NCBI GenBank assembly: GCA_002470515.1
Contig: DKML01000021.1
Location: 1 to 55,721 of the forward strand
Direction: 5' to 3'
Origin: Proteobacteria bacterium UBA7415
GTDB lineage: Bacteria; Pseudomonadota; Gammaproteobacteria; Arenicellales; Arenicellaceae
Length of the DNA stretch: 55,721 bases
Positions within the stretch are counted from its first letter, which is position 1. Each line of letters begins with the position of its first letter. This document shows positions 1,987 to 50,203 of the stretch, piece by piece. A program made the position numbers and the translations under genes. Under the pieces are notes generated by a model, which worked only from the letters and a program-made list of their open reading frames with translations, did not search any database and was not told where the DNA came from.

Positions 1987-3813
1987 CTAAGCTTCCTTAG
2001 CTTCTTTAGGTGCGCGCGATGCGCGCTTGCGCTCGTTCTCCGACAGGAATTTCTTTCTGATACGAATACTTTCCGGAGTGATTTCCACTAGTTCATCATC
2101 ATCAATGAATTCCAACGCTTCTTCGAGCGTATGCAATATTGGCGGAACTAGCGCTATTGCATCGTCTTTGCCAGACGCACGCACGTTAGTTAACTGCTTG
2201 CCTTTAAGCGGGTTTACCGTGAGGTCATTTTCACGCGAATGAATTCCAACCACCTGCCCTTCGTAAACCATCTGCGAAGGCGACACCATCATCTTGCCAC
2301 GTTCTTGCAAGTTGAAAATAGCAAAACCAAGTGCTTTACCCGTTCCGTTTGAAATAAGTACACCGTTCTTTCGTTGACCGAACTGACGTGTTTTCTTAGG
2401 CCCGTAATGATCAAATACGTGATAAATCAAACCAGAACCAGACGTCATGGTCAGAAACTCTGTTTGAAAACCAATAAGACCGCGCGACGGAATTATAAAA
2501 TCGAGTCTTACTCGACCTTGGCCGTCGGGAGCCATGCTTTGTATGTCGCCACCACGTTCTTGTAGGGCCTTCATTACCGTACCCTGCTGATCTTCCTCAA
2601 TATCTACTGTGAGGTTTTCGAATGGCTCTTGTACCACCCCATCTACAGTTTTATAAATTACTTCTGGGCGCGAAACCGCCATTTCATAACCTTCGCGACG
2701 CATATTCTCTAACAATATAGACAAATGCAGCTCACCGCGACCAGACACCTTGAATTTTTCTGGGTCTGGGGTGTCTTCTACTCGCAAAGCCACATTGTGG
2801 AGTAACTCTTTCTGCAAACGCTCACGAATCTGTCTAGAGGTAAGGTATTTACCTTCCTGACCCGCGTATGGCGACGTGTTAACTTGAAACGTCATCGTTA
2901 CCGTTGGCTCATCGACTGTAAGCGGCGGCAATGCTTCAACAGACTCACGATCACAGATCGTATCTGAAATATGCAATTCATCGAGGCCTGTTATGGCAAT
3001 GATGTCGCCCGCGTTAGCTACGTTAATATCTACGCGTTCAATGCCGTGGAAGCCAAATAGCTTAGCGACTCGGCCATTTCGAGTTTTTCCTTGATCATCA
3101 ATAACGGTAACAGGCTTGTTCAGCGTAACACTACCGCGTTTCACTCGGCCAATACCAATAACGCCGAGATAGCTTGAGTAATCTAACTGTGAGATTTGCA
3201 TCTGGAACGGTGCATCAAGCTCAACAGGTGGCGGAGGTACGTTGTCGATAATCGTTTGGAACAACACATCCATGTTGTCAGTTTTTTGATCCGCTTCAAC
3301 CGTGGCATAGCCTTGAATTGCCGATGCATAGATAACTGGAAAGTCCAATTGCTCATCGGTAGCGCCTAATAGATCGAAAAGATCAAATGTTTGGTCAAGA
3401 ACCCAATCAGGTCTCGCGCCTTCTCGGTCAATTTTGTTGATCACGACGATTGGCTTTAGGTTATGCGCAAACGCTTTTTGCGTAACAAAACGCGTTTGAG
3501 GCATAGGGCCGTCAACAGCGTCTACTAGCAAAATAACTGAATCGACCATAGACATGATTCGCTCTACTTCGCCACCAAAGTCAGCGTGTCCTGGTGTATC
3601 AACAATATTAATGCGGTAGTCTTTCCACTTCAAAGCGGTTGGCTTTGCCAGAATGGTAATACCACGTTCTTTTTCGATCTCATTGCTGTCCATAACGCGC
3701 TCAACAAGTTCTGCGCGATCGCTGAACGTGCCAGATTGTTGTAAGAGTTTATCGACAAGTGTAGTTTTTCCATGATCGACGTGAGCGATGATGGCGACGT
3801 TTCTGAGCTTCAT
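1987..3813 (-). CDS. typA: Ribosome-associated GTPase BipA/TypA
   Basis: BipA is an EF-G-like translational GTPase that acts on 50S subunit assembly and stress adaptation. The start is placed at the ATG giving [18 protein letters not shown], where family members begin. A longer frame to 3885 would add 24 unrelated residues. The protein has 608 residues, the usual length. Visible are the G1 motif AHVDHGKTT (residues 10-18), RGITI in switch [13 protein letters not shown] (G3), NKID (G4), then the EF-G-like beta-barrel and the BipA C-terminal domain with GRGELHL and SRGLIGF. It is followed by the DUF1178 gene on the same strand. Confidence 0.96.
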
Positions 3814-3904
3814 AAGAACTATTTTGGTGTGGAAATAAAGGGCGCGATTATAGGGGTTCTGGGCATAATTACTACCGCTCAGCATGAATTAGTTGCGCTA
3901 TCTC

Positions 3905-3927
3905 AAAAGCCACGCTTAGCGGCTTTT
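3905..3927 (-). terminator. Hairpin downstream of the dimethylarginine hydrolase gene
   Basis: AAAAGCC (3905-3911) and GGCTTTT (3921-3927) form a seven-pair stem around a nine-base loop, so A/T tracts lie on both sides. A second hairpin, AAGCCTT/AAGGCTT at 3976-3997, lies between it and the gene's stop codon. Both sit between the hydrolase gene and bipA and plausibly end the upstream transcript. The T tract is short, so this is only a likely terminator. Confidence 0.5.
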
Positions 3928-4020
3928 ATACCCATTTGCTGATGCTCCCGCTTGTATTTCTTAAGACTGACCAATAAGCCTTGATAAACTAAGGCTTGCA
4001 GGCCATTCCGGTACGAGTAC

Positions 4021-4809
4021 CTAGAAACGCAGAGACAGGCAACTTAAGCCACCATCGAGCTTTTGAAACTCGGTCATAGCGACTTCTCTGACCTTGTACC
4101 CCATGCTCTCTATAGCCGAAGACGTGCTCGCAAAGCCCGCGGGTACAAGCACAGTGTCGTTTATCCACACACTGTTCGCTGAATAGCTGTCTTGCATCGA
4201 TACCTGGGCACGCTTGAAACCGCTAAACTGTTGCTTACTAACAAATTCGCCACAGACTAACAAATGGCCGTTCTCTAGATAGCTCAGACCCGTTTTTAGA
4301 TGCAACATCTCAGACATTTCGACAACTTCGCCCGATAAGCCATAGCGCTCAAGAATATTGATCAGTTGGGCAGCACCAATAGAGTTGGTGCGGTCAGACA
4401 AGCCAATATAATAGTGACTACCCACCATCATAATATCGCCCGCCTCTACTGTTCCGGGCGCCGTTATACGCTCTACATGGTCGTACGAGTCGCATACCGC
4501 GGCTTCGATGTGCGCAACCTCGCCTTGCCGTGAGGCGGCGCCTGGGTGCATTAGAATTGCGCACTTAGGCGTTAACAACGCCGCATCCTCTACAAAACAG
4601 CTGTCTGGATAGTCGTTCAAAGCATCTAACTCTGTTACTTCTAAATTGCATTCCTTCAAGGCTTCAACGTAATCTTCGTGTTGTTGACAGGCAAGATCAA
4701 AATCAGGCGAGCCCATATCGGCTTCGGTGAGCCCTTGCACCATATTTTCGCAAGGTCGACGAACAATAGCCTTTTTAAAGTAATGGGGAATATCAAATTG
4801 AGTAGTCAT
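4021..4809 (-). CDS. Dimethylarginine dimethylaminohydrolase / arginine deiminase-type amidinotransferase
   Basis: The family hydrolyses the guanidinium group of (methyl)arginine, giving citrulline plus dimethylamine in the DDAH case. The 262-residue protein has the catalytic set: Glu74 in CFVEDAA, His170 in MLHLKTG and the nucleophile Cys257 in DGGLSCLS near the C-terminus. MVGSHYYIGLSDRTN and GHLLVCGEF are further family blocks. An amino-acid permease gene lies 80 bp upstream on the same strand, which fits uptake and breakdown of arginine-like compounds. The exact substrate (dimethylarginine or arginine) cannot be decided from sequence alone. No strong ribosome binding site is visible before the ATG. 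Confidence 0.85.
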   Translation of the reverse strand: MTTQFDIPHYFKKAIVRRPCENMVQGLTEADMGSPDFDLACQQHEDYVEALKECNLEVTELDALNDYPDSCFVEDAALLTPKCAILMHPGAASRQGEVAHIEAAVCDSYDHVERITAPGTVEAGDIMMVGSHYYIGLSDRTNSIGAAQLINILERYGLSGEVVEMSEMLHLKTGLSYLENGHLLVCGEFVSKQQFSGFKRAQVSMQDSYSANSVWINDTVLVPAGFASTSSAIESMGYKVREVAMTEFQKLDGGLSCLSLRF

Positions 4810-7413: not shown

Positions 7414-8007
7414 ATGTTTGCCCTACTCCACGCGAAAGACAATTTGTGTTCGGGTCTTGAAAAATCTAAACCTGGGTCAGCTGAAAAACGCATACCCTAT
7501 AGCCTGATCATTGGATTCATGCTGCTGGTTGGAATGAATAGCACCAGCACGTTTGCAAAAGACTATAAAGTCGAAGCCATTGTATTTAAACAACTGAATG
7601 CAGGTGCCGCAGCGGAGAGTCATCGATACACCCCGCCATCCTCTCCACATTCAGCAAGCGCAACTTGGGCCATTGATGCTTCGATGTTGGTTGACGATGT
7701 TGTATCACTCAATGAATCGCCAGACTATGAAATAGTTCAGACCTTTTCCTGGGCTCAGGAATCATTGCCATTCTCAGAATCAGCATCAATGAGTATGTAC
7801 GAACCTAGCCTAAAAGGATGGATCAAGGTTTATGCGAACAGTTTGCTTTATGTGAACCTCGACTTAGAAATGGAAGGGTTTAGACTTACAGAGAAACGCC
7901 GAATAAAACTAGATGAAAAACACTTCTTTGATCACCCTAAGTTCGCCGTTTTGATGCAGGTATCTCGGCTCGAAAAGCCAGCTGAAGAGACAGTAGAAAC
8001 GCCTTAG
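7414..8007 (+). CDS. CsiV-like periplasmic protein
   Basis: The protein resembles CsiV, a peptidoglycan-binding envelope protein first studied in Vibrio. After a basic N-terminus, a hydrophobic segment (IPYSLIIGFMLLVG) ends in the likely signal cleavage site TFA-KDYKV. The mature part starts with the family's YKVEAIVFKQ strand and closes with RRIKLDEKHFFDHPKFAVLM, a typical CsiV ending. It has 197 residues. The segment before the signal peptide is unusually long (about 30 residues) and no ribosome binding site precedes the ATG, so the start is uncertain. The common mfd neighbour of csiV is not here. Confidence 0.65.
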   Translation: MFALLHAKDNLCSGLEKSKPGSAEKRIPYSLIIGFMLLVGMNSTSTFAKDYKVEAIVFKQLNAGAAAESHRYTPPSSPHSASATWAIDASMLVDDVVSLNESPDYEIVQTFSWAQESLPFSESASMSMYEPSLKGWIKVYANSLLYVNLDLEMEGFRLTEKRRIKLDEKHFFDHPKFAVLMQVSRLEKPAEETVETP

Positions 8008-8020
8008 GAAATCAGCTTAC

Positions 8021-8866
8021 TTAGTTGTCGCTTTCTTCTTCTAGCAATAGCAACAAAATAGGCGGGATCATCACCTCGTTGAGTTCGATAATGAAATCAA
8101 TATTACTCAGGTTGTTCGCTGTGTTGAGAGAATTAGGAAACACTTTCCCCCCTTTGAAGTCCGGCGAACAATTTGAACAGTTCATATAGGCTTTTACTAT
8201 GCCTATTCCAAAGCGGGACACCTTGTTAATAGAATATGTCGCAGAAGAATTTCCGCTCTGTATGGTAAACACAGCTCTCTGACCAGTAATGGCCAGACCG
8301 TCCGCACTGAGTAAACGAACCTCAATCTTTAAATCACGCGTTGCCAGCATGCCGTCAGGTAACGACACTTGACCCGTCACAGTATTGTTAGTTAATAGGC
8401 TTATATCTAAGACCTCAGGCAGCTCAACCGGTCTATTGAAAAGCACTTGCTGAGAAAAGCCTGTAAACGTACCAGAAGGCCCCCTATATTGGGTTCCGAT
8501 GACTTTATCGCAGTTGGCGCAGTCAATTCTAACCGATGAAAAATAGGTTCCATCCGTAGAAATACCAGCCACCGAGTACTGCGTTGTTGACTGTCCTTTT
8601 AGCATTGTGGTTGTGGTGCTCTTAGTATCCACAATCGGAAATAATATTCCTAAATTCGGAAGCACAACAATTGTGTGTCTTTGGATCTTTAAGAGTAAGG
8701 AATAATTTTTGGCCGCTACGCCTCGATCTAAACTAATAGCTCCAGTAACGGTCATGGTTGATGGCGGAGTCTGTGCAAAGACTTGTTCAGACAGCGCTGC
8801 TAGAAAAGTAATTAGCATTAAAGCTAGTAGAGATACACGACAAACGCCAACGTTAGAATAGAACAA
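8021..8866 (-). CDS. Secreted protein with two internal repeats, each with a CxxC pair
   Basis: I do not recognise the family. A signal peptide is clear (hydrophobic core LLALMLITFLAALSE, cleavage after VFA). The mature protein is two copies of one domain of about 100 residues. Both begin TVTG-(A/Q)-(I/V)-SL, both have a mid-domain segment with a CxxC (CANC, CSNC) at the equivalent place, and both end in a D-(I/F)-(S/I) strand. The repeat and beta-strand pattern suggests Ig-like or prealbumin-like folds. The C-terminus is odd: a short run of Pro, Ile and Leu followed by acidic residues. Only a TTG is available as start in the region before the signal peptide. It converges on the CsiV-like gene with 13 bp between stops. 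Confidence 0.6.
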   Translation of the reverse strand: MFYSNVGVCRVSLLALMLITFLAALSEQVFAQTPPSTMTVTGAISLDRGVAAKNYSLLLKIQRHTIVVLPNLGILFPIVDTKSTTTTMLKGQSTTQYSVAGISTDGTYFSSVRIDCANCDKVIGTQYRGPSGTFTGFSQQVLFNRPVELPEVLDISLLTNNTVTGQVSLPDGMLATRDLKIEVRLLSADGLAITGQRAVFTIQSGNSSATYSINKVSRFGIGIVKAYMNCSNCSPDFKGGKVFPNSLNTANNLSNIDFIIELNEVMIPPILLLLLEEESDN

Positions 8867-8910
8867 CTGCTTTAATGCCCGTGGACCCGACGACTAAGCC
8901 AAGGCACTGC

Positions 8911-10776
8911 TTATGCGTTGCGTTCTTGTAACGGCTCAAGGTCATGAGCTCGGTATTCAGGAATCATGTGGCGTAGCGATTGAATCAATGAGTCATCAAA
9001 GCGATCCATTTTAGATAACAGGTCCTCAAGAAGCTCACTGGCTTTTTGTGAGTCAATGGTTCGGGTGGCCGCCAAATGAATCTTCTCGTAATCCGTGTCC
9101 GAGAGATTTTCGTCTGTATGGAACAACTCTTCATGCAGTTTCTCACCTGCTCGCAGCCCCGTGTATACGATTCTTATGTCCTTGTGAACTTCTTTACCGC
9201 TTAACTGAATAAGTTGCTCGGCTAAGTCAGATATCAGCACTGGCAAGCCCATATCTAGAACATAGATACGTCCACCCTCCCCCATTGCACTTGCTTCTAA
9301 TATTAGCTGCGAGGCTTCCGTGATAGTCATAAAGTAGCGAGTCATCTCAGGGTGCGTAACCGTCACTGGTCCACCGCGCTTGATCTGCTCTTGGAATTTA
9401 GGGACTACACTTCCTGCGGAACCCAACACATTACCAAAGCGAACTGTTATAAAAGTAGTTTCGCTCTGAGGAGCAAGTTGCTGAATATAGATTTCGGCAG
9501 CACGCTTGCATGCTCCCATCAGCGAACTTGGATTAACGGCTTTGTCCGTAGAGATTAGAACGAACTTTTCAACACCACTAGAGTGTGCCAAATCAGCCAC
9601 CTGTTTAGTGCCGAAAACATTATTACGAACCGCCTCTCTTACTTGGCCTTCGAGTAGCGGAACATGCTTGTACGCAGCTGCGTGAAATACAGCGGCTGGC
9701 TTATAACGCGCGAATATGTGCTGCATCGCTACAACATCGCATACATCACCGAGTACCGGAGAAAGAGTCACATTGGGGAAGCGCTCGGAAAGCTCTTCTT
9801 CAATCCGGTAAAGGTTGTATTCACTTTGATCAAGAATAACCAACCGTGCTGAGCAAACTGAAGCCAATTGACGACAAAGCTCTGCGCCTATAGAGCCTCC
9901 AGCGCCTGTTACCAATACCGTTTTGTCGCATAAACTGTCTTTTATACGATGCCAATCTAGCTTGACGGGGTCGCGCCCCAAAAGATCGTCGATACGCACT
10001 TCGCGCATATCGCCAAGCTGCACCTTGCCAGATACGAGTTCATGGGCGCCAGGTAGAGTTTTGAACTCAACACCCGACTTTTCGCACAAACCAACCAGCC
10101 TCTGCATTGTTTTCTCGCTCGCAGACGGCACTGCGATAAGCACCAATTCAATACCCCAGCGCTCAACGACATCTAGCAGTACTTCAGTTGAAGCTATTAT
10201 GGGTACTCGGTGTATTTGTCGACCTACCTTTTCGGGATCGTCGTCTAAAAAGCCAATAATATTGTAGCGATTAGGATGGTTACGACGTAGATCTCGTGAC
10301 AACTGCTCACCAGCGGCTCCCGCCCCTAACACTAAGACCTTACGGCCAGCCTTGGTTGTAAAGTGTCTATCCTTAAAGAGTCTAAAAACCAACCTCGAGG
10401 AGCTCATCAATACGGCTAAAACTAAGGCATATAGAATAAAAACCGAACGCGGCACGAAAGCCAAACGCTCTGCAACTAGGAACAAACTAAATGCTATAGC
10501 GATAGTACCGGTAACGGTAGCTCGCAAAATAAGCGAGAGATCTGGTAACGAAACAAACCGCCACTCACCGCGATGAACGCCAACAAAATAGTTGGCTGTT
10601 AACTGAACAGCTAACACTACCGGAAGCGCAAAGAAGGCGCCCCGTAAAAAATCTTCAGGGATAACGCCTAAGTTGTAACGTAACCAATACGCGACCAACC
10701 ACGCCACAGGTATGACTAAAGCGTCATGAAGGAGAATTCTCCACTGATACAGAAGTAGTCCAAATGAGCGAATCAT
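8911..10776 (-). CDS. Membrane nucleotide-sugar 4,6-dehydratase (WbpM/CapD/PglF-like)
   Basis: Enzymes of this type convert UDP-GlcNAc to the 4-keto-6-deoxy sugar used for QuiNAc, FucNAc or bacillosamine. Four N-terminal membrane segments (about residues 10-130) are followed by a first nucleotide-binding region with GAGAAG (151-156). The catalytic Rossmann domain has TGAGGSIG (290-297) and STDKAVNP...MGACKR (409-425), with Met420 in place of the usual Tyr and Lys424, as in the large membrane forms. It has 621 residues, a normal length. It is the last gene of the polysaccharide locus, 294 bp downstream of the initiating transferase, so it may also have its own promoter. Confidence 0.93.
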   Translation of the reverse strand: MIRSFGLLLYQWRILLHDALVIPVAWLVAYWLRYNLGVIPEDFLRGAFFALPVVLAVQLTANYFVGVHRGEWRFVSLPDLSLILRATVTGTIAIAFSLFLVAERLAFVPRSVFILYALVLAVLMSSSRLVFRLFKDRHFTTKAGRKVLVLGAGAAGEQLSRDLRRNHPNRYNIIGFLDDDPEKVGRQIHRVPIIASTEVLLDVVERWGIELVLIAVPSASEKTMQRLVGLCEKSGVEFKTLPGAHELVSGKVQLGDMREVRIDDLLGRDPVKLDWHRIKDSLCDKTVLVTGAGGSIGAELCRQLASVCSARLVILDQSEYNLYRIEEELSERFPNVTLSPVLGDVCDVVAMQHIFARYKPAAVFHAAAYKHVPLLEGQVREAVRNNVFGTKQVADLAHSSGVEKFVLISTDKAVNPSSLMGACKRAAEIYIQQLAPQSETTFITVRFGNVLGSAGSVVPKFQEQIKRGGPVTVTHPEMTRYFMTITEASQLILEASAMGEGGRIYVLDMGLPVLISDLAEQLIQLSGKEVHKDIRIVYTGLRAGEKLHEELFHTDENLSDTDYEKIHLAATRTIDSQKASELLEDLLSKMDRFDDSLIQSLRHMIPEYRAHDLEPLQERNA

Positions 10777-43240: not shown

Positions 43241-43522
43241 ATGCCTCAATACTCCTTAAAAGATCAGCTGTCTGTCACTTCCATCGGTGAAGAGTCTGTG
43301 TTGCTTGACGTGTCCTCGGGTCAATACTTTGGCCTGAATGAGCTTGGCACCAAAATCATCGAAGGCCTCATGCAGTCTCTTAGCCTAGACGACATTCTGC
43401 TCGGCATAGTACAGGAATTTGATGTAGACATGGACCAAGCTCGTGTAGACGCAGAAAATCTTCTCAGCGAACTCGAAACGGCTGGATTAGTCTTCGCGGT
43501 ACCGAGCGTGGAAAGCGAATAG
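43241..43522 (+). CDS. PqqD-like peptide chaperone (HPr-rel-A type)
   Basis: A 93-residue PqqD-family protein: [32 protein letters not shown], then a helical half ending [11 protein letters not shown]. PqqD-type domains (RRE) bind the leader of a ribosomally made peptide and present it to a modifying enzyme. It is followed 6 bp later by an NTP_transf_5 protein and faces an HprK-like kinase. This trio resembles the HPr-rel-A system (TIGR04352/TIGR04353). I see no precursor peptide gene next to it, so the client is unknown. Confidence 0.82.
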
Positions 43523-43528
43523 ATTCTT

Positions 43529-44719
43529 ATGCCGCGCAGTCTATTTGCCATTCAAGACTCCATTGGACCTGAGCTACAAAAGCTACTGCACAGCTTAGGC
43601 CAAACCTATCTCGTCACAGCCTCACAAACTCCGCCTTCCCAGGAAGACAACGCCTCACCTCTTCCCGCCTCAATCTCTTTGACTATAGACGACCTAGCGT
43701 TTCTAGATAAGCATGGCTTGCTTATGCTGTGCAGTGAGGCACCGCTCAACAAATACCTGCCGGCAGAGCATAAGCAACAACATATGGCAGCGGTTAGCCT
43801 TGGCATAGCGGCAACCCAAACACAGACTTCCTCCTTAGAGGCAGTACTCAATACCCTTGCGCAAGAAAACTTAACGCCTGCGATCATTTTCAAAGGCTCG
43901 GCCTTAGGCCCCATTGAGTATCAACAATCTTGGCACCGCCCGAAGTCTGACCACGACTTGCTCATTCCCGTTCAAGCTAAAGCGGCCTATCACGACTCTC
44001 TGATAGAACAAGGCTTCACCCACATTGTTAGCATTTCTGGTCGTTATGTAAGCTACCAAGCGAGCTATGTGAAGCAAACATCAGGGGCCGCACACATATG
44101 GATCGACTTACACTGGAAAATCAGTAATCGGCAAATGCTCGCATCGCTGTTTGATTACGCAGACATGATTAACAGCACAAGATCGTTGCCACTGAGTAGC
44201 GACCCTGAGAAACTAAATATATCCGCACTCACTCCATCAAGAGCTGACTGCGTTGTGCTGGCTGCTCAGCATGTGATTGGCCACCACAGTGTAGATACAC
44301 GGCTATTATGGTTTTTTGATCTCTTGGTCATCATTTGCAACTGCTCAAACGATGAATTAGAGCAACTTGTTGCACGCTGCACTGAGCTGCGTGTTGCGGG
44401 CATGGTTCTCGCCGCAATCGACTACGCTGAATCAACATTTATTCCAGTACTACCAGACGATATTCGACAAAAACTGCTCGAACTCTCTGCGGGTCCCGAA
44501 GCGACTCAAATTCTGGTTACGCAGCCACATACGCGTGCACGCCTTATTTGGTGGGATCTAAAGAGTATTGATACATGGGGCGGAAAATTTAGGTTCATTC
44601 TCGAAAATCTATTTCCAGACAGAGCTTACATGGGCGCGCGTTTCGGCTCTAAATGGCTAATCATCAGTCACTTGAAACGTATTCTGGGATTTCCTATAAC
44701 GCCTAACCAATTGAAATAG
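43529..44719 (+). CDS. Uncharacterised nucleotidyltransferase family protein (NTP_transf_5-like)
   Basis: A 396-residue protein matching PF14907. The core is PAIIFKGSALGPIEYQQSWHRPKSDHDLLIP (residues 118-147, a longer motif) with Lys122 and the Asp141-His-Asp143 metal pair of minimal nucleotidyltransferases. IWIDLHWKISN supplies a further acidic residue. These enzymes could transfer a nucleotide to a peptide, sugar or protein. It follows the PqqD-like gene by 6 bp and ends 1 bp from the stop of the converging kinase gene. Confidence 0.82.
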   Translation: MPRSLFAIQDSIGPELQKLLHSLGQTYLVTASQTPPSQEDNASPLPASISLTIDDLAFLDKHGLLMLCSEAPLNKYLPAEHKQQHMAAVSLGIAATQTQTSSLEAVLNTLAQENLTPAIIFKGSALGPIEYQQSWHRPKSDHDLLIPVQAKAAYHDSLIEQGFTHIVSISGRYVSYQASYVKQTSGAAHIWIDLHWKISNRQMLASLFDYADMINSTRSLPLSSDPEKLNISALTPSRADCVVLAAQHVIGHHSVDTRLLWFFDLLVIICNCSNDELEQLVARCTELRVAGMVLAAIDYAESTFIPVLPDDIRQKLLELSAGPEATQILVTQPHTRARLIWWDLKSIDTWGGKFRFILENLFPDRAYMGARFGSKWLIISHLKRILGFPITPNQLK

Positions 44720-44720
44720 T

Positions 44721-45737
44721 TCACTTAATCGTATTTACGATTGATTCGCGAACATTGGGCAGCTGCTCCAAGTCTCGTGGGTAGCTGGCACGCCACATAG
44801 GCACAAGATGTGCTAATTGGGCACTAAACAGTGTATGGCTTTGAAGTTCTTGCGCATCAAACAGCTTTGCCCCCACGGAATGACGCACAATCTCAAGCAA
44901 TGCGTCACGCGGTGTTACGGGTTCAATCAATATCTGGTCAGTAGGCTCTGGCGCTAATCTTACAAAAGCGGCGATTGGTAATGGCGACTTTGAAGCACCT
45001 ACAGCAAAGTAGTCACTTTGTGCTGTGGGTAATTTAAGTTGCGGAAAGGCGCCCGAAATCAGTAAAGATTCGGCATCTACCACGATTACATCGTCACTGA
45101 TTTGCTGCCAATCGTCATCATGTGTTGCGGAGAGCGTGGATTTTCCAATGCCAGACTCAGCAATAAGAGCTATTGCCCCGTTGGGCGTCACCACACAACC
45201 GGCATGCAAACAATAGCGATTGCGCGCTCTGAAGAACAGCACTGTGACCGGGCCTAACATCACCTCTAGCGCGAGCCGACCAGACGGATCAGCCAATACA
45301 CAAATAGCTGTTTGGGTGGATAAGTCTAAAAAGTAAGCGTCGGTCCCATCAATTCGCACTAACCCATGATGTTGATCGCATAGGTACTCAATTTGTCTAA
45401 CAGCGCCATCAAACGGAGCGCTACCCTTATATCGTAAATTCAATGCATCAGTAGTTAGCTTAGCCTGTTTAAAGGCTGTGCTGGACTTACTCTTAACGGT
45501 CGTTGAATTAACGTTTAAAGCCGTTACTTTTGAGCTATCAACTTTAAACGCAACGAGCTGTGGAAACTCCACGGTCGAACTTAAGACTACGCCACCCAGC
45601 AAGTAATAATGCTCTTTGTTAGAGCCGTCTAAAAACTGATCATCTGGAGTTATATTGCGCACGTTGGATGGCCTTTGATAGAACTCATTCTTTAGATACT
45701 TGTTGCTACTAGCGATCTCTGCAATTACGGACTTCAC
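44721..45737 (-). CDS. HprK-related kinase (HPr-rel-A type)
   Basis: The C-terminal half resembles HPr kinase: CLHAGCVVTPNGAIALIAESGIGKST with Walker A at residues 194-201, then ISDDVIVVDAE. The N-terminal 170 residues are unlike HPr kinase. In lasso-peptide and HPr-rel-A clusters such kinases phosphorylate a peptide or an unknown partner. It converges on the nucleotidyltransferase gene (1 bp between stops) and diverges from the DUF4442 gene. A PTS role is unlikely because no HPr gene is nearby. Confidence 0.8.
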   Translation of the reverse strand: MKSVIAEIASSNKYLKNEFYQRPSNVRNITPDDQFLDGSNKEHYYLLGGVVLSSTVEFPQLVAFKVDSSKVTALNVNSTTVKSKSSTAFKQAKLTTDALNLRYKGSAPFDGAVRQIEYLCDQHHGLVRIDGTDAYFLDLSTQTAICVLADPSGRLALEVMLGPVTVLFFRARNRYCLHAGCVVTPNGAIALIAESGIGKSTLSATHDDDWQQISDDVIVVDAESLLISGAFPQLKLPTAQSDYFAVGASKSPLPIAAFVRLAPEPTDQILIEPVTPRDALLEIVRHSVGAKLFDAQELQSHTLFSAQLAHLVPMWRASYPRDLEQLPNVRESIVNTIK

Positions 45738-45895: not shown

Positions 45896-46375
45896 ATGCC
45901 ATCTATCTACGACCGCTACCAAAAAATATCCAAGTTGCCTGCTGGTAAATTCATATTCAGCAAAATGGTCGGGTTCGGCGCGCCTTTCTTTCGATATTTA
46001 CGAGCTCAAGTTTTAGACCTCAGCCCTGCGTATTGCAAAGTCCAAGTCAAAGACCGTCGTGGCCTACATAATCATTTGGGCACTATCAATGCCGGAGCTC
46101 TCTGCTCCCTAGCTGAAATGTGTGGCGGTATGGCGCTGGATGCGGCGATAGACCCAAGCTTGCGCTGGATACCCAAAGCAATGACTGTAAAGTACATCGC
46201 CAAAGCAACCGAGACTATTACGGCCATTAGCGACTTTGAAGTGACTACCATTGAGCCTGGCGAATTTGTTGTTCCCGTGGCTGTGAGTAATCGAGCTGGG
46301 GATTTACTGTTTACCGCTGACATCAGCTTTTACATCAGTAAGAAACCAGCAAGGCCTAAGAATTGGAGAAATTAG
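45896..46375 (+). CDS. DUF4442 hotdog-fold thioesterase-like protein
   Basis: A 159-residue hotdog protein. RRGLHNHLGTINAGALCSLAEMCGGMALD is the conserved substrate-tunnel helix region with the HxxT-xxxGA-like pattern of DUF4442/PaaI thioesterases. The remainder forms beta strands (AMTVKYIAKATETITAISDF). Acyl-CoA or a related thioester is the likely substrate. Its stop overlaps the stop of the converging SDR gene by four bases. Confidence 0.85.
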   Translation: MPSIYDRYQKISKLPAGKFIFSKMVGFGAPFFRYLRAQVLDLSPAYCKVQVKDRRGLHNHLGTINAGALCSLAEMCGGMALDAAIDPSLRWIPKAMTVKYIAKATETITAISDFEVTTIEPGEFVVPVAVSNRAGDLLFTADISFYISKKPARPKNWRN

Positions 46376-47067
46376 GACTTCTTAAAAACCCGCTTTAGGG
46401 GCTGTAAGTTCAACTCATCAACAACACTGGTTGCTGGCAGTTTAAGCGCACTGAATACACTGCTGGCGATGTCTTGAGGGCTAAGGGCAAACTCTTGCCC
46501 TTGCGCTGGCTCAAACGCCAACTCGTCAAAGAAATCGCTGCGCACAGCACCTGGGTTGATCAGAATCACGCGAATATCGCTATTTGCGCACTCTGCTCTA
46601 AGACTTTGCGCTAAACCGCGTAGGCCAAACTTACTGGCGCAATAAACGCTGCCCTGCTTTGCGCCTTGTAGCGCAGCCTCGCTGCCAATTAAGACTATGT
46701 CGCCACCTCCTTTAGCTTTCATAAGCGGCACAATTTTACTTAACAGCACTATGTTAGAGGTTAGGTTGGTGGTAATGAGCTTTTCGATTTGCGCAGTAGA
46801 GAATTGTTCGATTGCACCAAACTGACCATAGCCCGCATTGAGTACAAGTAGATCTAAACCGCTAAGTAAACTGCGGTGTTCTTTACAAAACGCATCTACC
46901 GCCCCAAGATCCGATTGATCGAGTGTGATGGCTTGAGCGAAGTTAAGATCGTTTTTACTGAAGTCACGCCCTACCCCGATAGCCGTATACCCTTGCTCAA
47001 TCGCTTGGGTGGCAATAGCTCGACCAATGCCTGAAGTTGCGCCTGTGACTAGTGCATTTAAGCTCAT
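46372..47067 (-). CDS. SDR family NAD(P)-dependent oxidoreductase
   Basis: A classical short-chain dehydrogenase of 231 residues. The cofactor site is TGATSGIGRAIATQ, NAGYGQFG follows, and the catalytic Ser-Tyr-Lys are in LIGSEAALQGAKQGSVYCASKFG. INPGAVRSDFF is the usual PG motif. The substrate is unknown. It is the last gene of the minus-strand set with the photolyase-like gene 46 bp upstream. Confidence 0.9.
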   Translation of the reverse strand: MSLNALVTGATSGIGRAIATQAIEQGYTAIGVGRDFSKNDLNFAQAITLDQSDLGAVDAFCKEHRSLLSGLDLLVLNAGYGQFGAIEQFSTAQIEKLITTNLTSNIVLLSKIVPLMKAKGGGDIVLIGSEAALQGAKQGSVYCASKFGLRGLAQSLRAECANSDIRVILINPGAVRSDFFDELAFEPAQGQEFALSPQDIASSVFSALKLPATSVVDELNLQPLKRVFKKS

Positions 47068-47113
47068 ATTAGTTTTGTCCGGTTTTTACGAGGTTGTACG
47101 AATGCGACGAACG

Positions 47114-48130
47114 TTAAGTTGCGCTTCTGTACGTGTACAGCCTGTCAGCTTGAATATGCTGTAAACAAAGCTGTTCTACGTAATCGAGTATCTGCGTTTC
47201 GATATCACTACGGTAGCTTACCATCGTGCCATTACTAGGATCCTGCTGCTCTAAGCCAAAATTAAACACGGGCTCTTCGGGGTACAGCTTATACATCGCC
47301 TTAAAGAACGTTTTGGGTACGCGAAAGCTACCTAACGTCACGCTATCTAATAACTCAGGGTCTAATTGGCTAAACACCTGTTCGGCTAAGCGCGCATAGC
47401 TTTCTTGATACCCTTCATGCCATATAACGGGGTCAAAGCGAATACCGATCTTCCATCCCTGCTCTTGAAGCTTTTGCAGAGCGTCGATCCGTTTACTCAC
47501 CGCAGGTGCTCCTAGCTCTACGGCTTGCGCTACCTCTGAAGGGCTTAAACTCGCCGCAATCACAACTTTATCAGATGCTTTGCGTTTTAGAAGCGAACGA
47601 ATTTGGGTGCTCTTGGTTCGCAGCTCTAATACCGCATTCGGTATGTGCTCAAATTGCTCAATAAAAAAGTCAGCAAACTGAGACATCGGCTCAAATGCTA
47701 AACTGTCGCAGTCGTAGCCCGAAAAAAACCAAGTAGGCTTCTCGTCGTTGGCGTGGCTGCTAGCGATTTTCTTAATCTCATCAACAAACTCTTCGTAGTT
47801 TACAAACAACAAATAATGAGCAGACTGAAACATGCCTTGTAAAAAACAATAGCGACAGTCGTACAAACAATTGAGCATGTGCGAAAAATAGTAGTGCGCG
47901 CCGCCACCGGTTTCATATTGCGCAGGCGTTGGGTGCACAAATGTATTTTCCTTAAGCGCAAGAATGAGCGACGGCGATTGCTTCTGCGCACGAAAGTTCT
48001 GGTTGTGGCCATTGAATATTTCGCTATGGCTTTGCACAGTAATCACTGTGGCCGATTTATAGCGTTTTAAGATCTCTTTGCTGCGAGGATGGTCAAGCGC
48101 GGCCTGCTCTATGTAGATAGTCTGAATCAT
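47114..48130 (-). CDS. Spore-photoproduct-lyase-like radical SAM enzyme
   Basis: Radical SAM Cys residues are Cys88, Cys92 and Cys95 in CLYDCRYC. Another Cys stands at 141 in FFSGYDCDSLAFEP, the place where Bacillus SPL has its hydrogen-donor Cys141. LELRTKSTQIRSLL and RFDPVIWHEGY match later SPL blocks. SPL repairs the UV-made spore photoproduct thymine dimer. This genome does not look like a spore former, so the substrate may be the same lesion in desiccated cells or another DNA lesion. It follows the nucleosidase-like gene by 15 bp. Confidence 0.85.
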   Translation of the reverse strand: MIQTIYIEQAALDHPRSKEILKRYKSATVITVQSHSEIFNGHNQNFRAQKQSPSLILALKENTFVHPTPAQYETGGGAHYYFSHMLNCLYDCRYCFLQGMFQSAHYLLFVNYEEFVDEIKKIASSHANDEKPTWFFSGYDCDSLAFEPMSQFADFFIEQFEHIPNAVLELRTKSTQIRSLLKRKASDKVVIAASLSPSEVAQAVELGAPAVSKRIDALQKLQEQGWKIGIRFDPVIWHEGYQESYARLAEQVFSQLDPELLDSVTLGSFRVPKTFFKAMYKLYPEEPVFNFGLEQQDPSNGTMVSYRSDIETQILDYVEQLCLQHIQADRLYTYRSAT

Positions 48131-48145
48131 GTTTTGCTACTTACG

Positions 48146-48994
48146 TTAACTTGGTACGCTAAAGTTTGGCGCTATTGAATTGACCAGTACCTGTAAGTCA
48201 GCAATCGCCTTTCGCGCATCAGTTTGAGCAACTAGATCTGCATTTGATGATGCGTCCCAACGCTCAGCCAGTATGAGCTTGTATACCAGTTCACCCACAA
48301 TGCGTTTCTGGCTGTGCGATGCCCTAAAGGGTAGATCCAACATGGGAGCAAGTACATCAACCGCATCAACAAGATCACCCTTGCCTAACCGGCCTACTGC
48401 TGCGGCAAACGCGACTACATCAGCTACATGAGGCTTGATCAATGCGTAACAATCATCTTTGTTGAAGCCCGCCAAAGGTTGCTTAGCATTATCGGAAATA
48501 ACTTTAATAACGTGTACATACTCTTTACTGACAAATCTTTGTGCGGCGCAGACAAAACCACTGGCTTCCATATCAAATACAAGCTCATTGTAAGCGTCTG
48601 AGGGCTGCGCTTGAGATTCCAGCCCTGCTCTACTCCATTTGCTCTTTATTATAATAGTTGGGTAAAAAGTGCGTTCTAGCAAAGGACCACTAACGCTGTG
48701 AATTAAGCACAACGCACCAACGGCTTTGTCGGCCGTGCCGCCAATTCCAAAGTTGATCCAAACGCAGCTTCGCTCAGACATTCCCGCTAACCACGCCGCA
48801 GCCATAGAGGCATTAAGCGCGCCCATTCCACTAATGACCAATATGTGTTTTGCCTCATCCAGATCAGCGCCATCTGAATAAAAGCCAAAAGGCTTAGCAC
48901 ATTGCTTGGTAAGCGCTAACGCTTCTACAAACGGCTTCGCTTCGGCCTCAGTGGCGAATACCCAAGCGACTGATCTATGATTTGCGTAATTCAT
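48146..48994 (-). CDS. Nucleoside phosphorylase/nucleosidase-like protein (MTAN superfamily)
   Basis: A PNP/MTAN-fold protein of 282 residues. ISGMGALNASMAAAWL and INFGIGGTADKAVGAL resemble the phosphate/nucleoside-binding glycine regions, FDMEASGFVCAAQRF is the MEA motif that binds the ribose, and VISDNAKQ is the SDN block with the catalytic Asp. It could cleave methylthioadenosine, adenosylhomocysteine or 5'-deoxyadenosine. Since it is next to a radical SAM gene that makes 5'-deoxyadenosine, the last is attractive, but this is inferred. Confidence 0.78.
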   Translation of the reverse strand: MNYANHRSVAWVFATEAEAKPFVEALALTKQCAKPFGFYSDGADLDEAKHILVISGMGALNASMAAAWLAGMSERSCVWINFGIGGTADKAVGALCLIHSVSGPLLERTFYPTIIIKSKWSRAGLESQAQPSDAYNELVFDMEASGFVCAAQRFVSKEYVHVIKVISDNAKQPLAGFNKDDCYALIKPHVADVVAFAAAVGRLGKGDLVDAVDVLAPMLDLPFRASHSQKRIVGELVYKLILAERWDASSNADLVAQTDARKAIADLQVLVNSIAPNFSVPS

Positions 48995-49001
48995 AGTCGA
49001 A

Positions 49002-49889
49002 TTATCGGTTCCAACGCTCGATTTTGCGAGTCATCTCTTCAGCAAGTTGCTGGTTTGCGTGTTTAATTGCCCCATTGCGAAGAATCTTAGCTTTTTCGAG
49101 CAGTGTTGAACGAGTCTGTGCAATAAGTTCTTGGTTTAACAACCAGTCGGGCTTGGGCTTGGGCTTGGGCTTGGAATCGAAATCTGCTTGAATAAGTATC
49201 TTCTCAAGTGCCGTTACCCGAAATCGATCCATACCCCAATGCTGACGCGACAATTGATCTGCATGACCACCTGTTTTATAAATCTGAGGGCTCCCCACAA
49301 AAGCAACTTGATAATACGAGCATATTCGCAACCACAAATCATAGTCTTCACACGCAGGTAAGCCTTCATCAAAGCCCCCTACCTTAGAAAACACATCGCG
49401 GTGAATTAAAATTGAGGACGGCGACATAGCGCACAAAGGCAAACAGTGCGCGTAAATCATCCCGCCATGCTTTTGGTGTTTGTTGTGTTGGTTAACCCTC
49501 ACCCCTTTGCGGATCCATATCTCTTGCGTATGACACACGGCTAAGCCCGTCTCATCAATAGCGTCGAATTGAACACTGAGCTTTTCGGGCATCCAGCTGT
49601 CATCAGAATCCAACAAGGCTATCCATTCACCCTGCGCTACACCTAAGCCGGCGTTACGGGCCGCGCTAACGCCACGATTGTTTTGAACCAAGAGCTGTAC
49701 ATCAGGGTAGACCCGGCCAACATACTCGGCCGTACCGTCATCAGAACCATCATCAATAACAATAAGTTCGTAGTCGCGATTCAAAACCCAGCCTTCTTTC
49801 TCAAAATGACTTTGAGCCAGCACAGACTCAACTGCCACAGATAGACTGTGCAGTCGATTAAAGCTGGGAATAAGGACAGAAAGTTTCAT
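49002..49889 (-). CDS. Glycosyltransferase family 2
   Basis: A GT-A enzyme starting MKLSVLIPSFNRLHSLSVAVES, with IDDGSDDGTAEYV, VSAARNAGLGVA, LLDSDDSW (DxD) and GGFDEGLPACEDYDLWLR. It has 295 residues from the chosen ATG. The open frame extends six codons upstream to a TTG. The C-terminal part contains KPKPKPKPDW, encoded by a hexanucleotide repeat at 49149-49172. It leads a set of nucleosidase, photolyase-like and SDR genes at 7, 15 and 46 bp spacing; a functional link to them is not evident. Confidence 0.88.
   Translation of the reverse strand: MKLSVLIPSFNRLHSLSVAVESVLAQSHFEKEGWVLNRDYELIVIDDGSDDGTAEYVGRVYPDVQLLVQNNRGVSAARNAGLGVAQGEWIALLDSDDSWMPEKLSVQFDAIDETGLAVCHTQEIWIRKGVRVNQHNKHQKHGGMIYAHCLPLCAMSPSSILIHRDVFSKVGGFDEGLPACEDYDLWLRICSYYQVAFVGSPQIYKTGGHADQLSRQHWGMDRFRVTALEKILIQADFDSKPKPKPKPDWLLNQELIAQTRSTLLEKAKILRNGAIKHANQQLAEEMTRKIERWNR
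49149..49172. repeat. Hexanucleotide repeat inside a glycosyltransferase gene
   Basis: GGGCTT is repeated about four times, encoding Lys-Pro dipeptides on the minus strand. Copy-number change would keep the frame and alter only the length of the Lys-Pro run. Confidence 0.75.
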
Positions 49890-50203
49890 GGCGTATGAAA
49901 GAAGCAAGTTTCGGGGTGGAATGTACCAGAAGTGTAAGCAATAAAACTTTAATGCCGCACAAAGATTGTGCTATTTTGCATAAATAAGCACGATTAAGTG
50001 ACTGTTTTAATTAGAAATTAGAAAGTGTTGGGTATAAAACACACCAACGGTGTTGCAAAAAACTCACCAAATTAAATAAATCGTCACTTTAGGTTAACAG
50101 TACGTTAAACCAACTCTTGAGTTTCGAAACGAGTCGTATGATTAGTCCATGAAATGTAAATGAGTATTTATTTTCATAACTCTCTCTTCTTTTTGTTATT
50201 TAG
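49890..50203. other. Non-coding stretch with possible plus-strand small RNA
   Basis: No gene is visible on either strand. It contains GTTTCGAAAC (a perfect 10-base palindrome near 50127) and a near-palindrome GGTTAAC/GTTAAACC at about 50093-50112. It ends in a strong plus-strand terminator with no plus-strand gene before it. A small transcript could end there; no clear sigma-70 promoter with good spacing was found. Confidence 0.4.

Follow-up and report, generated by a model that had tools for sequence, protein, structure and literature searches.

A conserved PqqD-nucleotidyltransferase-kinase trio of Arenicella as a probable part of a dispersed lasso peptide pathway

The window, that is, the whole stretch analyzed here, comprises 55,721 nucleotides of Proteobacteria bacterium UBA7415 (assembly GCA_002470515.1, contig DKML01000021.1) and carries a trio of genes for a PqqD-like protein, an NTP_transf_5 nucleotidyltransferase-fold enzyme (N), and an HprK-like kinase (K). 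We conclude that this trio most probably supplies the leader-binding protein B1, N, and K of a lasso peptide pathway, the other genes of which, for the precursor (A), the cyclase (C), and the protease (B2), would lie elsewhere in the genome. Our computations establish the genes, with their conservation and the families they are akin to, as well as the precursor and the linked arrangement in relatives. The sample consisted of 18 genomes of the genus Arenicella (Gammaproteobacteria, Arenicellales), the window genome included; working numbers denote genomes (G), contigs (C), and loci (L).

The trio and its conservation in Arenicella

The genes for the PqqD-like protein (93 amino acids [aa]; 43241..43522, plus strand) and N (396 aa; 43529..44719, plus strand) face that of K (338 aa, GTG start; 44721..45737, minus strand), and the stop codons of N and K (44717-44719 and 44721-44723) are 1 bp apart, which confirms the open reading frames (ORFs) and the convergent layout given in an earlier note on this DNA. 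The PqqD-like protein appears to be a discrete recognition element (RRE) of ribosomally synthesized and posttranslationally modified peptides (RiPPs), similar to lasso B1. It scores 54.7 bits against PF05402 (Pfam cutoff, 23.4), and at an E value of ≤0.01 it has just three matches in the PDB: 6jx3 (TfuB1), 9x90, and 5v1u (TbiB1). The match table names 9x90 "lasso peptide biosynthesis PqqD family chaperone," and we take TfuB1 and TbiB1 to be lasso B1 proteins.

N matches PF14907 (NTP_transf_5) with 72.6 bits, above the Pfam cutoff of 31.2. In an alignment of 18 rows (A1), K122, G123, R137, D141, D143, D193, H195, and W196 are invariant; D141 and D143 belong to a DHD triplet (residues 141-143; 43949..43957, plus strand) that is presumably the catalytic D-x-D motif of the nucleotidyltransferase fold. 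The AlphaFold model of N (mean pLDDT, 86.7) has nucleotidyltransferase-fold proteins as its top PDB matches; the Foldseek matches are of the same fold, with FKRP at rank 50, and are too distant to separate sugar transfer from nucleotide transfer. A role like that of PsmN is proposed for N.

K was assigned from a weak TIGR04352 match, a profile of its own (A2), its model, and its position in a tree; the Pfam search gave nothing over the cutoff, PF07475 included. Its layout, LHA...AESGIGKST...ISDDV, is that of the HprK/PEPCK P-loop type, and the solved folds nearest to its AlphaFold model (mean pLDDT, 78.6) are PEPCK structures. Across the 15 rows of A2, the P-loop AESGIGKST (residues 193-201; 45135..45161, minus strand) is invariant at A193, E194, S195, G196, G198, K199, S200, and T201, and so are H178 in CLHAG (45204..45206, minus strand) and the Asp-Asp pair at residues 215-216 (45090..45095, minus strand). 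H178, K199, D215, and D216 make up the His-Lys-Asp-Asp motif reported for lasso peptide kinases (PMC9266682). The three proteins are the parts of a peptide modification module, an RRE-type domain, a nucleotidyltransferase-fold enzyme, and a kinase, as the earlier note had recognized.

They are also a unit that is conserved across the genus beyond chance. N was found in all 18 genomes and is adjoined by PqqD in every one, the G016 copy being cut by a contig end; K is present in all 18 (profile A2) and lies convergent beside N in 17. For G009, the contig holds the tail of K alone. In G013, K lies on a separate contig (L143) with its other neighbors retained. This rearrangement (L041 and L143) splits K and the SDR, SPL, nucleosidase, and GT2 genes from PqqD-N, and both halves are intact. 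Where contigs reach, the trio is flanked by rpsF on one side and by SDR, SPL-like, nucleosidase-like, and GT2 genes on the other. Identity to the window copy across the genus is 24 to 31% for N and 30 to 35% for K, compared with 68 to 93% for the ribosomal-protein neighbors; the catalytic residues are invariant despite this low identity, which argues against decay of the trio.

No peptide, protease, or exporter gene was recognized beside the trio by short-ORF comparison, motif scan, and neighbor scans, in agreement with the earlier note. The conserved short ORF that the note proposed to look for did not emerge: among the short ORFs around the 18 trio loci none is widely common, the most frequent (6/18 loci) lies out of frame inside rpsR, and the others listed, around the PqqD-rpsF gap, each occur in at most five loci. 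A scan of the 18 loci for Y..P.[hydrophobic] returned a few ORFs, two of which are the PqqD gene itself, and none with the Gly and Thr of lasso leaders. We therefore rejected a local client peptide, for which short-ORF comparison, motif scan, and precursor profile yielded no candidate. The tail of ribosomal protein S6 (rpsF), also considered as a client, is variable and acidic, and adjacency alone is no evidence. An SpI-like peptidase or exporter was seen neither among the five downstream window neighbors (Pfam) nor among neighbors identified by similarity; a genome-wide SpI search was not made.

In the window, the genes near the kinase form a tight row on the minus strand (46372-49907) of SDR, SPL-like radical SAM, nucleosidase-like, and GT2 genes, which is found near the kinase across the genus loci. 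The nucleosidase-like gene of this row is fast evolving.

Precursor, cyclase, and protease genes outside the trio

Relatives of N were collected from 55 loci, 40 of them outside the genus. Within the stretches examined, 21 of these 40 hold a cyclase-like gene (L099 being doubtful) and 22 an HprK-like kinase, and in many of them the motif scan found precursors of the form Y..P.[hydrophobic]...G.....T; the 18 trio loci hold no ORF with the complete motif. Profile A3 consists of 15 aligned precursors, 14 from outside the genus and one from a lasso cluster of G002 (L071); it contains kin of its targets (L100 and L071), and the motif matches L107 and L109 were omitted. At E values of ≤1e-3, A3 matches in 16 of the 18 Arenicella genomes, and each match shares its contig with an Asn_synthase gene of a lower-scoring class, which scores 83 to 128 bits, as against 203 to 241 bits for the asnB-like class. 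The earlier note had seen no client; its view is superseded by this lasso precursor, the probable client, encoded in trans. The Asn_synthase genes of the 83- to 128-bit class are open frames of 404 to 667 aa, the two shortest lying near contig starts. Nine of the 16 A-C loci were read at length, and A adjoins C in all nine; the other seven are short loci around A. In a control of 16,850 frames (0.99 Mb, trio loci included), A3 matched all nine A loci read at length and L071, and the next best match had an E value of 0.99.

The leaders of A carry YxxP and, in 16/16, GDVRD. The core reads G[PG][TS]xGxGES in 16/16, which points to Gly1 and Glu8 and hence to an eight-residue ring, and Ser9 occurs in all 16 cores of the genus and in 22 of the 24 precursors in the comparison. 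The cyclase residues S281, G282, G283, D285, and S286 are invariant in 9/9, and on the C tree (47 rows of ≥540 aa; the contig-cut duplicate L198, start 3, was excluded) C of the genus groups with C of linked lasso loci. In the window's own genome, A (L151, 9063-9338) and C (L151, 9427-11328) lie on contig C20, both on the minus strand and 88 bp apart, and A passes the lasso leader model NF033521 with 22.2 bits (cutoff, 19).

The protease was found, as PF13471, in 17 of the 18 genomes. Its gene in the own genome lies on contig C6 (L065, 9527-9985, minus strand), and the protein passes NF033537 (lasso_biosyn_B2) with 51.3 bits (cutoff, 33). Twelve B2 loci from 10 genomes were read. Seven share a common site, where they neighbor a GspC-like gene; six of the seven also have an Lnt-like gene there and six an MgtE-like gene (gene names by eye); the other five lie elsewhere, some in lasso clusters. 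A further B2 copy, L146 of G011, adjoins PqqD. The own genome therefore has A-C on C20, B2 on C6, and B1-N-K on C10, and the single-locus clustering usual for lasso pathways is seen neither there nor on the long contigs of G015. In the latter assembly (20 contigs), ∼556 kb separate A-C from B2 on one contig, and a different contig, 1.2 Mb long, holds the trio at 988 kb; since these loci are far apart on long contigs, the dispersal is not an effect of assembly. In five of the 18 genomes (G003, G008, G010, G012, and G014), no PqqD besides that of the trio was detected, and all of these except G012 have A and C (completeness: G003, 95%; G014, 99%; G008, 78%; G010, 87%). Because no other PqqD was detected in these four A-C genomes, we assign the trio PqqD to the lasso pathway by elimination.

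The kinase is tied to the pathway by its relatives. In the sister genus g15, C, A, and K are linked within ∼3 kb in all four genomes (G032, G044, G053, and G060), and in L100 (G026), K, A, and C are linked, with N further along. On the K tree (69 distinct rows of ≥220 aa; the incomplete G009 kinase is not among them, and L192, identical to L130, was dropped), g15 K and trio K fall into one clade of 24 rows (97/98, bootstrap not settled), which also takes in K of L100, K of L130, and one long-branched Lysobacteraceae row. Close kin of trio K from this clade adjoin the nearest precursor-cyclase pair, that of g15, and another such pair in L100. The g15 cyclase is sister to that of the genus (95, quick tree). 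Near C-A-K, g15 has a second lasso cluster that carries N, B1, and B2. In G024, from another family of Arenicellales, A-C is on C12, B1-N on C1, and N-K on C6, suggesting that dispersal is not peculiar to Arenicella. Three genomes from other genera of the Arenicella family (G018-G020) lack N or have a marginal match to it, and the genus C profile gives none of them a score above 119 bits.

Several further genes of these genomes deserve mention. A TonB-dependent receptor lies beside the lasso cyclase in G015 (L152, 6772-9003), and genes of TonB-receptor-like size are near C in L154, L156, and L160. A second precursor with a YGDVRD leader and the core GGSLNPGDPG occurs in G005 (L179) and G015 (L180), on contigs with another Asn_synthase match; G015 showed no PqqD other than those in its two trios. 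Further lasso-type genes or clusters are found in G002, G004, G006, and G011 (L071, L072, L075, and L144-L147), of which the L075 cluster has a sulfotransferase and an Asp-hydroxylase/sulfotransferase fusion. The K-A-C-N lasso locus L100 includes a methyltransferase (3505-4722) with an N-terminal stretch that is RRE/PqqD-like by eye.

The proposed pathway and competing explanations

What we infer from these data is which proteins interact physically, which residue is targeted, in what order the steps occur, and what N does chemically. B1 would bind the YxxP...GDVRD leader of A in trans; K would phosphorylate a hydroxyl residue of the precursor, for which core Ser9 is the top candidate by conservation and Thr/Ser3 the second; N would add a sugar or a nucleotide to the phosphate; B1 and B2 would cut after T-L/M of the leader; and C would close the Gly1-Glu8 ring. 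The roles given here to B1 in binding the leader, to B1-B2 in cutting it, and to C in closing the ring follow from what is established for lasso peptides (covered in part by PMC10885120). Phosphorylation by K, predicted from motif and family, is well supported, and from the conservation of Ser9 we infer that the phosphosite may be in the core. For decoration of the phosphate by N, the chances are about even.

A number of observations weigh against this pathway. The PqqD-like protein scores 56.5 bits with the lasso model NF033530 (lasso_PqqD_Strm), one of the bases of its assignment, below the model cutoff of 70; the own A is weak by A3 alone (E = 9.6e-4); and the best model for the own C, the lasso cyclase NF033535, gives 143 bits against a cutoff of 525. 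The C termini of the core vary, 15 of the 16 ending in neither Ser nor Thr and one in Thr. On the N tree (86 rows, each of ≥300 aa; L025-L036 were left out, and so was L130, a copy of L192), trio N has the B1-N pair of G024/G034 (84) as its neighbor instead of g15 N, and the N, B1, and B2 of g15 belong to its second lasso cluster rather than to the C-A-K set. In G036 and G039, which have N, the genus C profile gives weak C matches (141 and 104 bits). The search for B2 came up empty in G016 and gave a weak match in G010, and the copies read from G002, G003, and G006 lie away from the common site. Distance covariation across nine genomes gives a partial value of 0.47 for K-C and 0.46 for a mere neighbor gene of C, and so does not set the lasso genes apart. 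Finally, A and C were not found in the assemblies of G001 and G012, which have the trio; both also lack the flanking pfp gene, which fits an assembly gap or a real loss equally.

The retention of the trio in G001 and G012 is also what one would expect if it served another client in trans, such as a cellular protein or a linear phosphorylated peptide, and were akin to lasso enzymes by ancestry only. Systems for linear polyphosphorylated peptides (LPP) do combine an RRE, an HprK-like kinase, and a nucleoside triphosphate (NTP) transferase without a cyclase (PMC13381572), and g15 N is not the nearest kin of trio N. We nevertheless consider another client unlikely, given a lasso precursor with a YxxP leader in 16 of the 18 genomes, four of which have no other detected PqqD, and kinases of the trio K clade beside such a precursor in all four g15 genomes and in L100. 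That a lasso cluster was lost and left the trio behind as a decaying remnant is suggested by identities of ∼30%, by the lack of a recognized local precursor, protease, or cyclase, and by the lost linkage of K in G013; open frames and invariant catalytic residues throughout the genus, together with the survival of both separated halves in G013, make this highly improbable. Hardly more credible is the idea of K as a divergent HPr(Ser) kinase whose substrate is the HPr of the nitrogen phosphotransferase system, with neighbors that are incidental: K has an HprK/PEPCK-like fold, and an HPr-like gene was recognized by eye in a locus that also holds B2, yet window K has no PF07475 match and clusters with kinases of lasso clusters, and PqqD and N stay alongside it.

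The earlier note had called the trio HPr-rel-A-like, and the kinds of proteins are indeed the same. Of the profiles it suggested, PF14907 matched as described above, whereas the other two gave weak matches below their cutoffs: 26.0 bits for K with TIGR04352 (cutoff, 200) and 26.8 bits for the PqqD-like protein with TIGR04353 (cutoff, 35). A second trio in the own genome, on C18, is collinear (L037: N, 7539-8651; PqqD, 8714-8992; K, 9009-9848), sits between mutY and trmB, and was seen in 13 of the 18 genomes. Its kinase fits TIGR04352 better, at 86 bits, also short of the cutoff, and forms a clade apart from window K on the K tree (100/100, bootstrap not settled). Because both models are missed and the kinases fall into separate clades, assignment of the window trio to HPr-rel-A is largely refuted and in our judgment very unlikely, the C18 trio appearing nearer to that system; PDB matches, trees, and the precursor search point instead to the lasso branch. 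The name HPr-rel-A was not met in the literature searched. The stretches examined around the C18 trio contain no lasso-type precursor. As the true source of B1 the C18 trio was rejected, since no second PqqD was detected in five genomes, four of them with A and C.

Comparison with known systems and implications

The earlier note regarded the function of such trios as undescribed; comparable sets are in fact described from lasso clusters of the pseudomycoidin/paeninodin type and from LPP (PMC9266682, PMC8498205, PMC13381572). In pseudomycoidin, PsmK places a phosphate on the C-terminal Ser, and the addition of one or two hexoses to this phosphate requires PsmN, these sources leaving open whether N itself transfers the sugar (PMC9266682, PMC8498205). 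The pseudomycoidin/paeninodin systems (PsmK-PsmN, PadeK, and ThcoK) resemble that of Arenicella in having a His-Lys-Asp-Asp HprK-like kinase, N, and a separate B2, and also a discrete B1 RRE and a cyclase, to which the B1-like and cyclase-like proteins of Arenicella probably correspond. Unlike in these systems, the Arenicella genes do not form a single cluster but occupy three loci; no exporter was recognized beside them, the core as a rule does not end in Ser as paeninodin does, and the proposed pathway occurs in nearly every genome of the genus. LPP clusters, as far as described in PMC13381572, share the core set of RRE, HprK-like kinase, and NTP transferase and differ in having an SpI-like peptidase and a transporter and no cyclase. 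The Arenicella genome, in contrast, has B2 and a lasso-cyclase-like gene, which adjoins the best candidate client, and no local precursor; the link of the trio to this client is a proposed one. HPr-rel-A systems (TIGR04352 and TIGR04353) have a kinase and a PqqD-like protein in common with the trio and differ by the missed cutoffs and by the kinase clade, which is separate from that of the C18 relative.

A lasso tailoring enzyme encoded away from its cluster is known from citrulassin, for which only the PAD is named as unlinked (PMC12971885); in Arenicella, none of B1, B2, K, and N is linked to A and C. Our literature search found no paper joining "Arenicella" with "lasso peptide," and no fully dispersed lasso pathway appeared among the titles and abstract openings it returned, so that an earlier mention is possible. 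The enzymes are of known kinds, and what is new, within the literature searched, is a probable three-locus lasso pathway kept through nearly the whole genus. On contig C29 of the own genome, two genes ∼31 kb apart (L038, 5661-6650, and L039, 7316-8290) encode PqqD fused to glycosyltransferases (PF04488 plus PqqD and PqqD plus GT25), possibly for leader-guided glycosylation of peptides.

Lasso peptides are usually sought as one compact gene cluster; a pathway in three loci would be missed or partly seen, and "orphan" PqqD-kinase-nucleotidyltransferase trios would get filed under other names. We tentatively suggest, as an extension less secure than the pathway itself, that the lasso peptide may be a near-core, vertically kept trait of Arenicella and of at least one genome of another family (G024), with B1-K-N as a stand-alone service module acting in trans on one or two precursor-cyclase pairs. 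Such persistence would speak for a physiological role rather than for a sporadic antibiotic, for example, that of a phosphorylated or phosphoglycosylated signal or of a metal carrier taken up through the TonB receptor beside C in G015. According to a review, the roles of phosphorylation and other modifications of lasso peptides are still to be unraveled (PMC9266682); a lasso peptide in nearly the whole genus would offer a test of the purpose of lasso peptides and of their phosphate tailoring.

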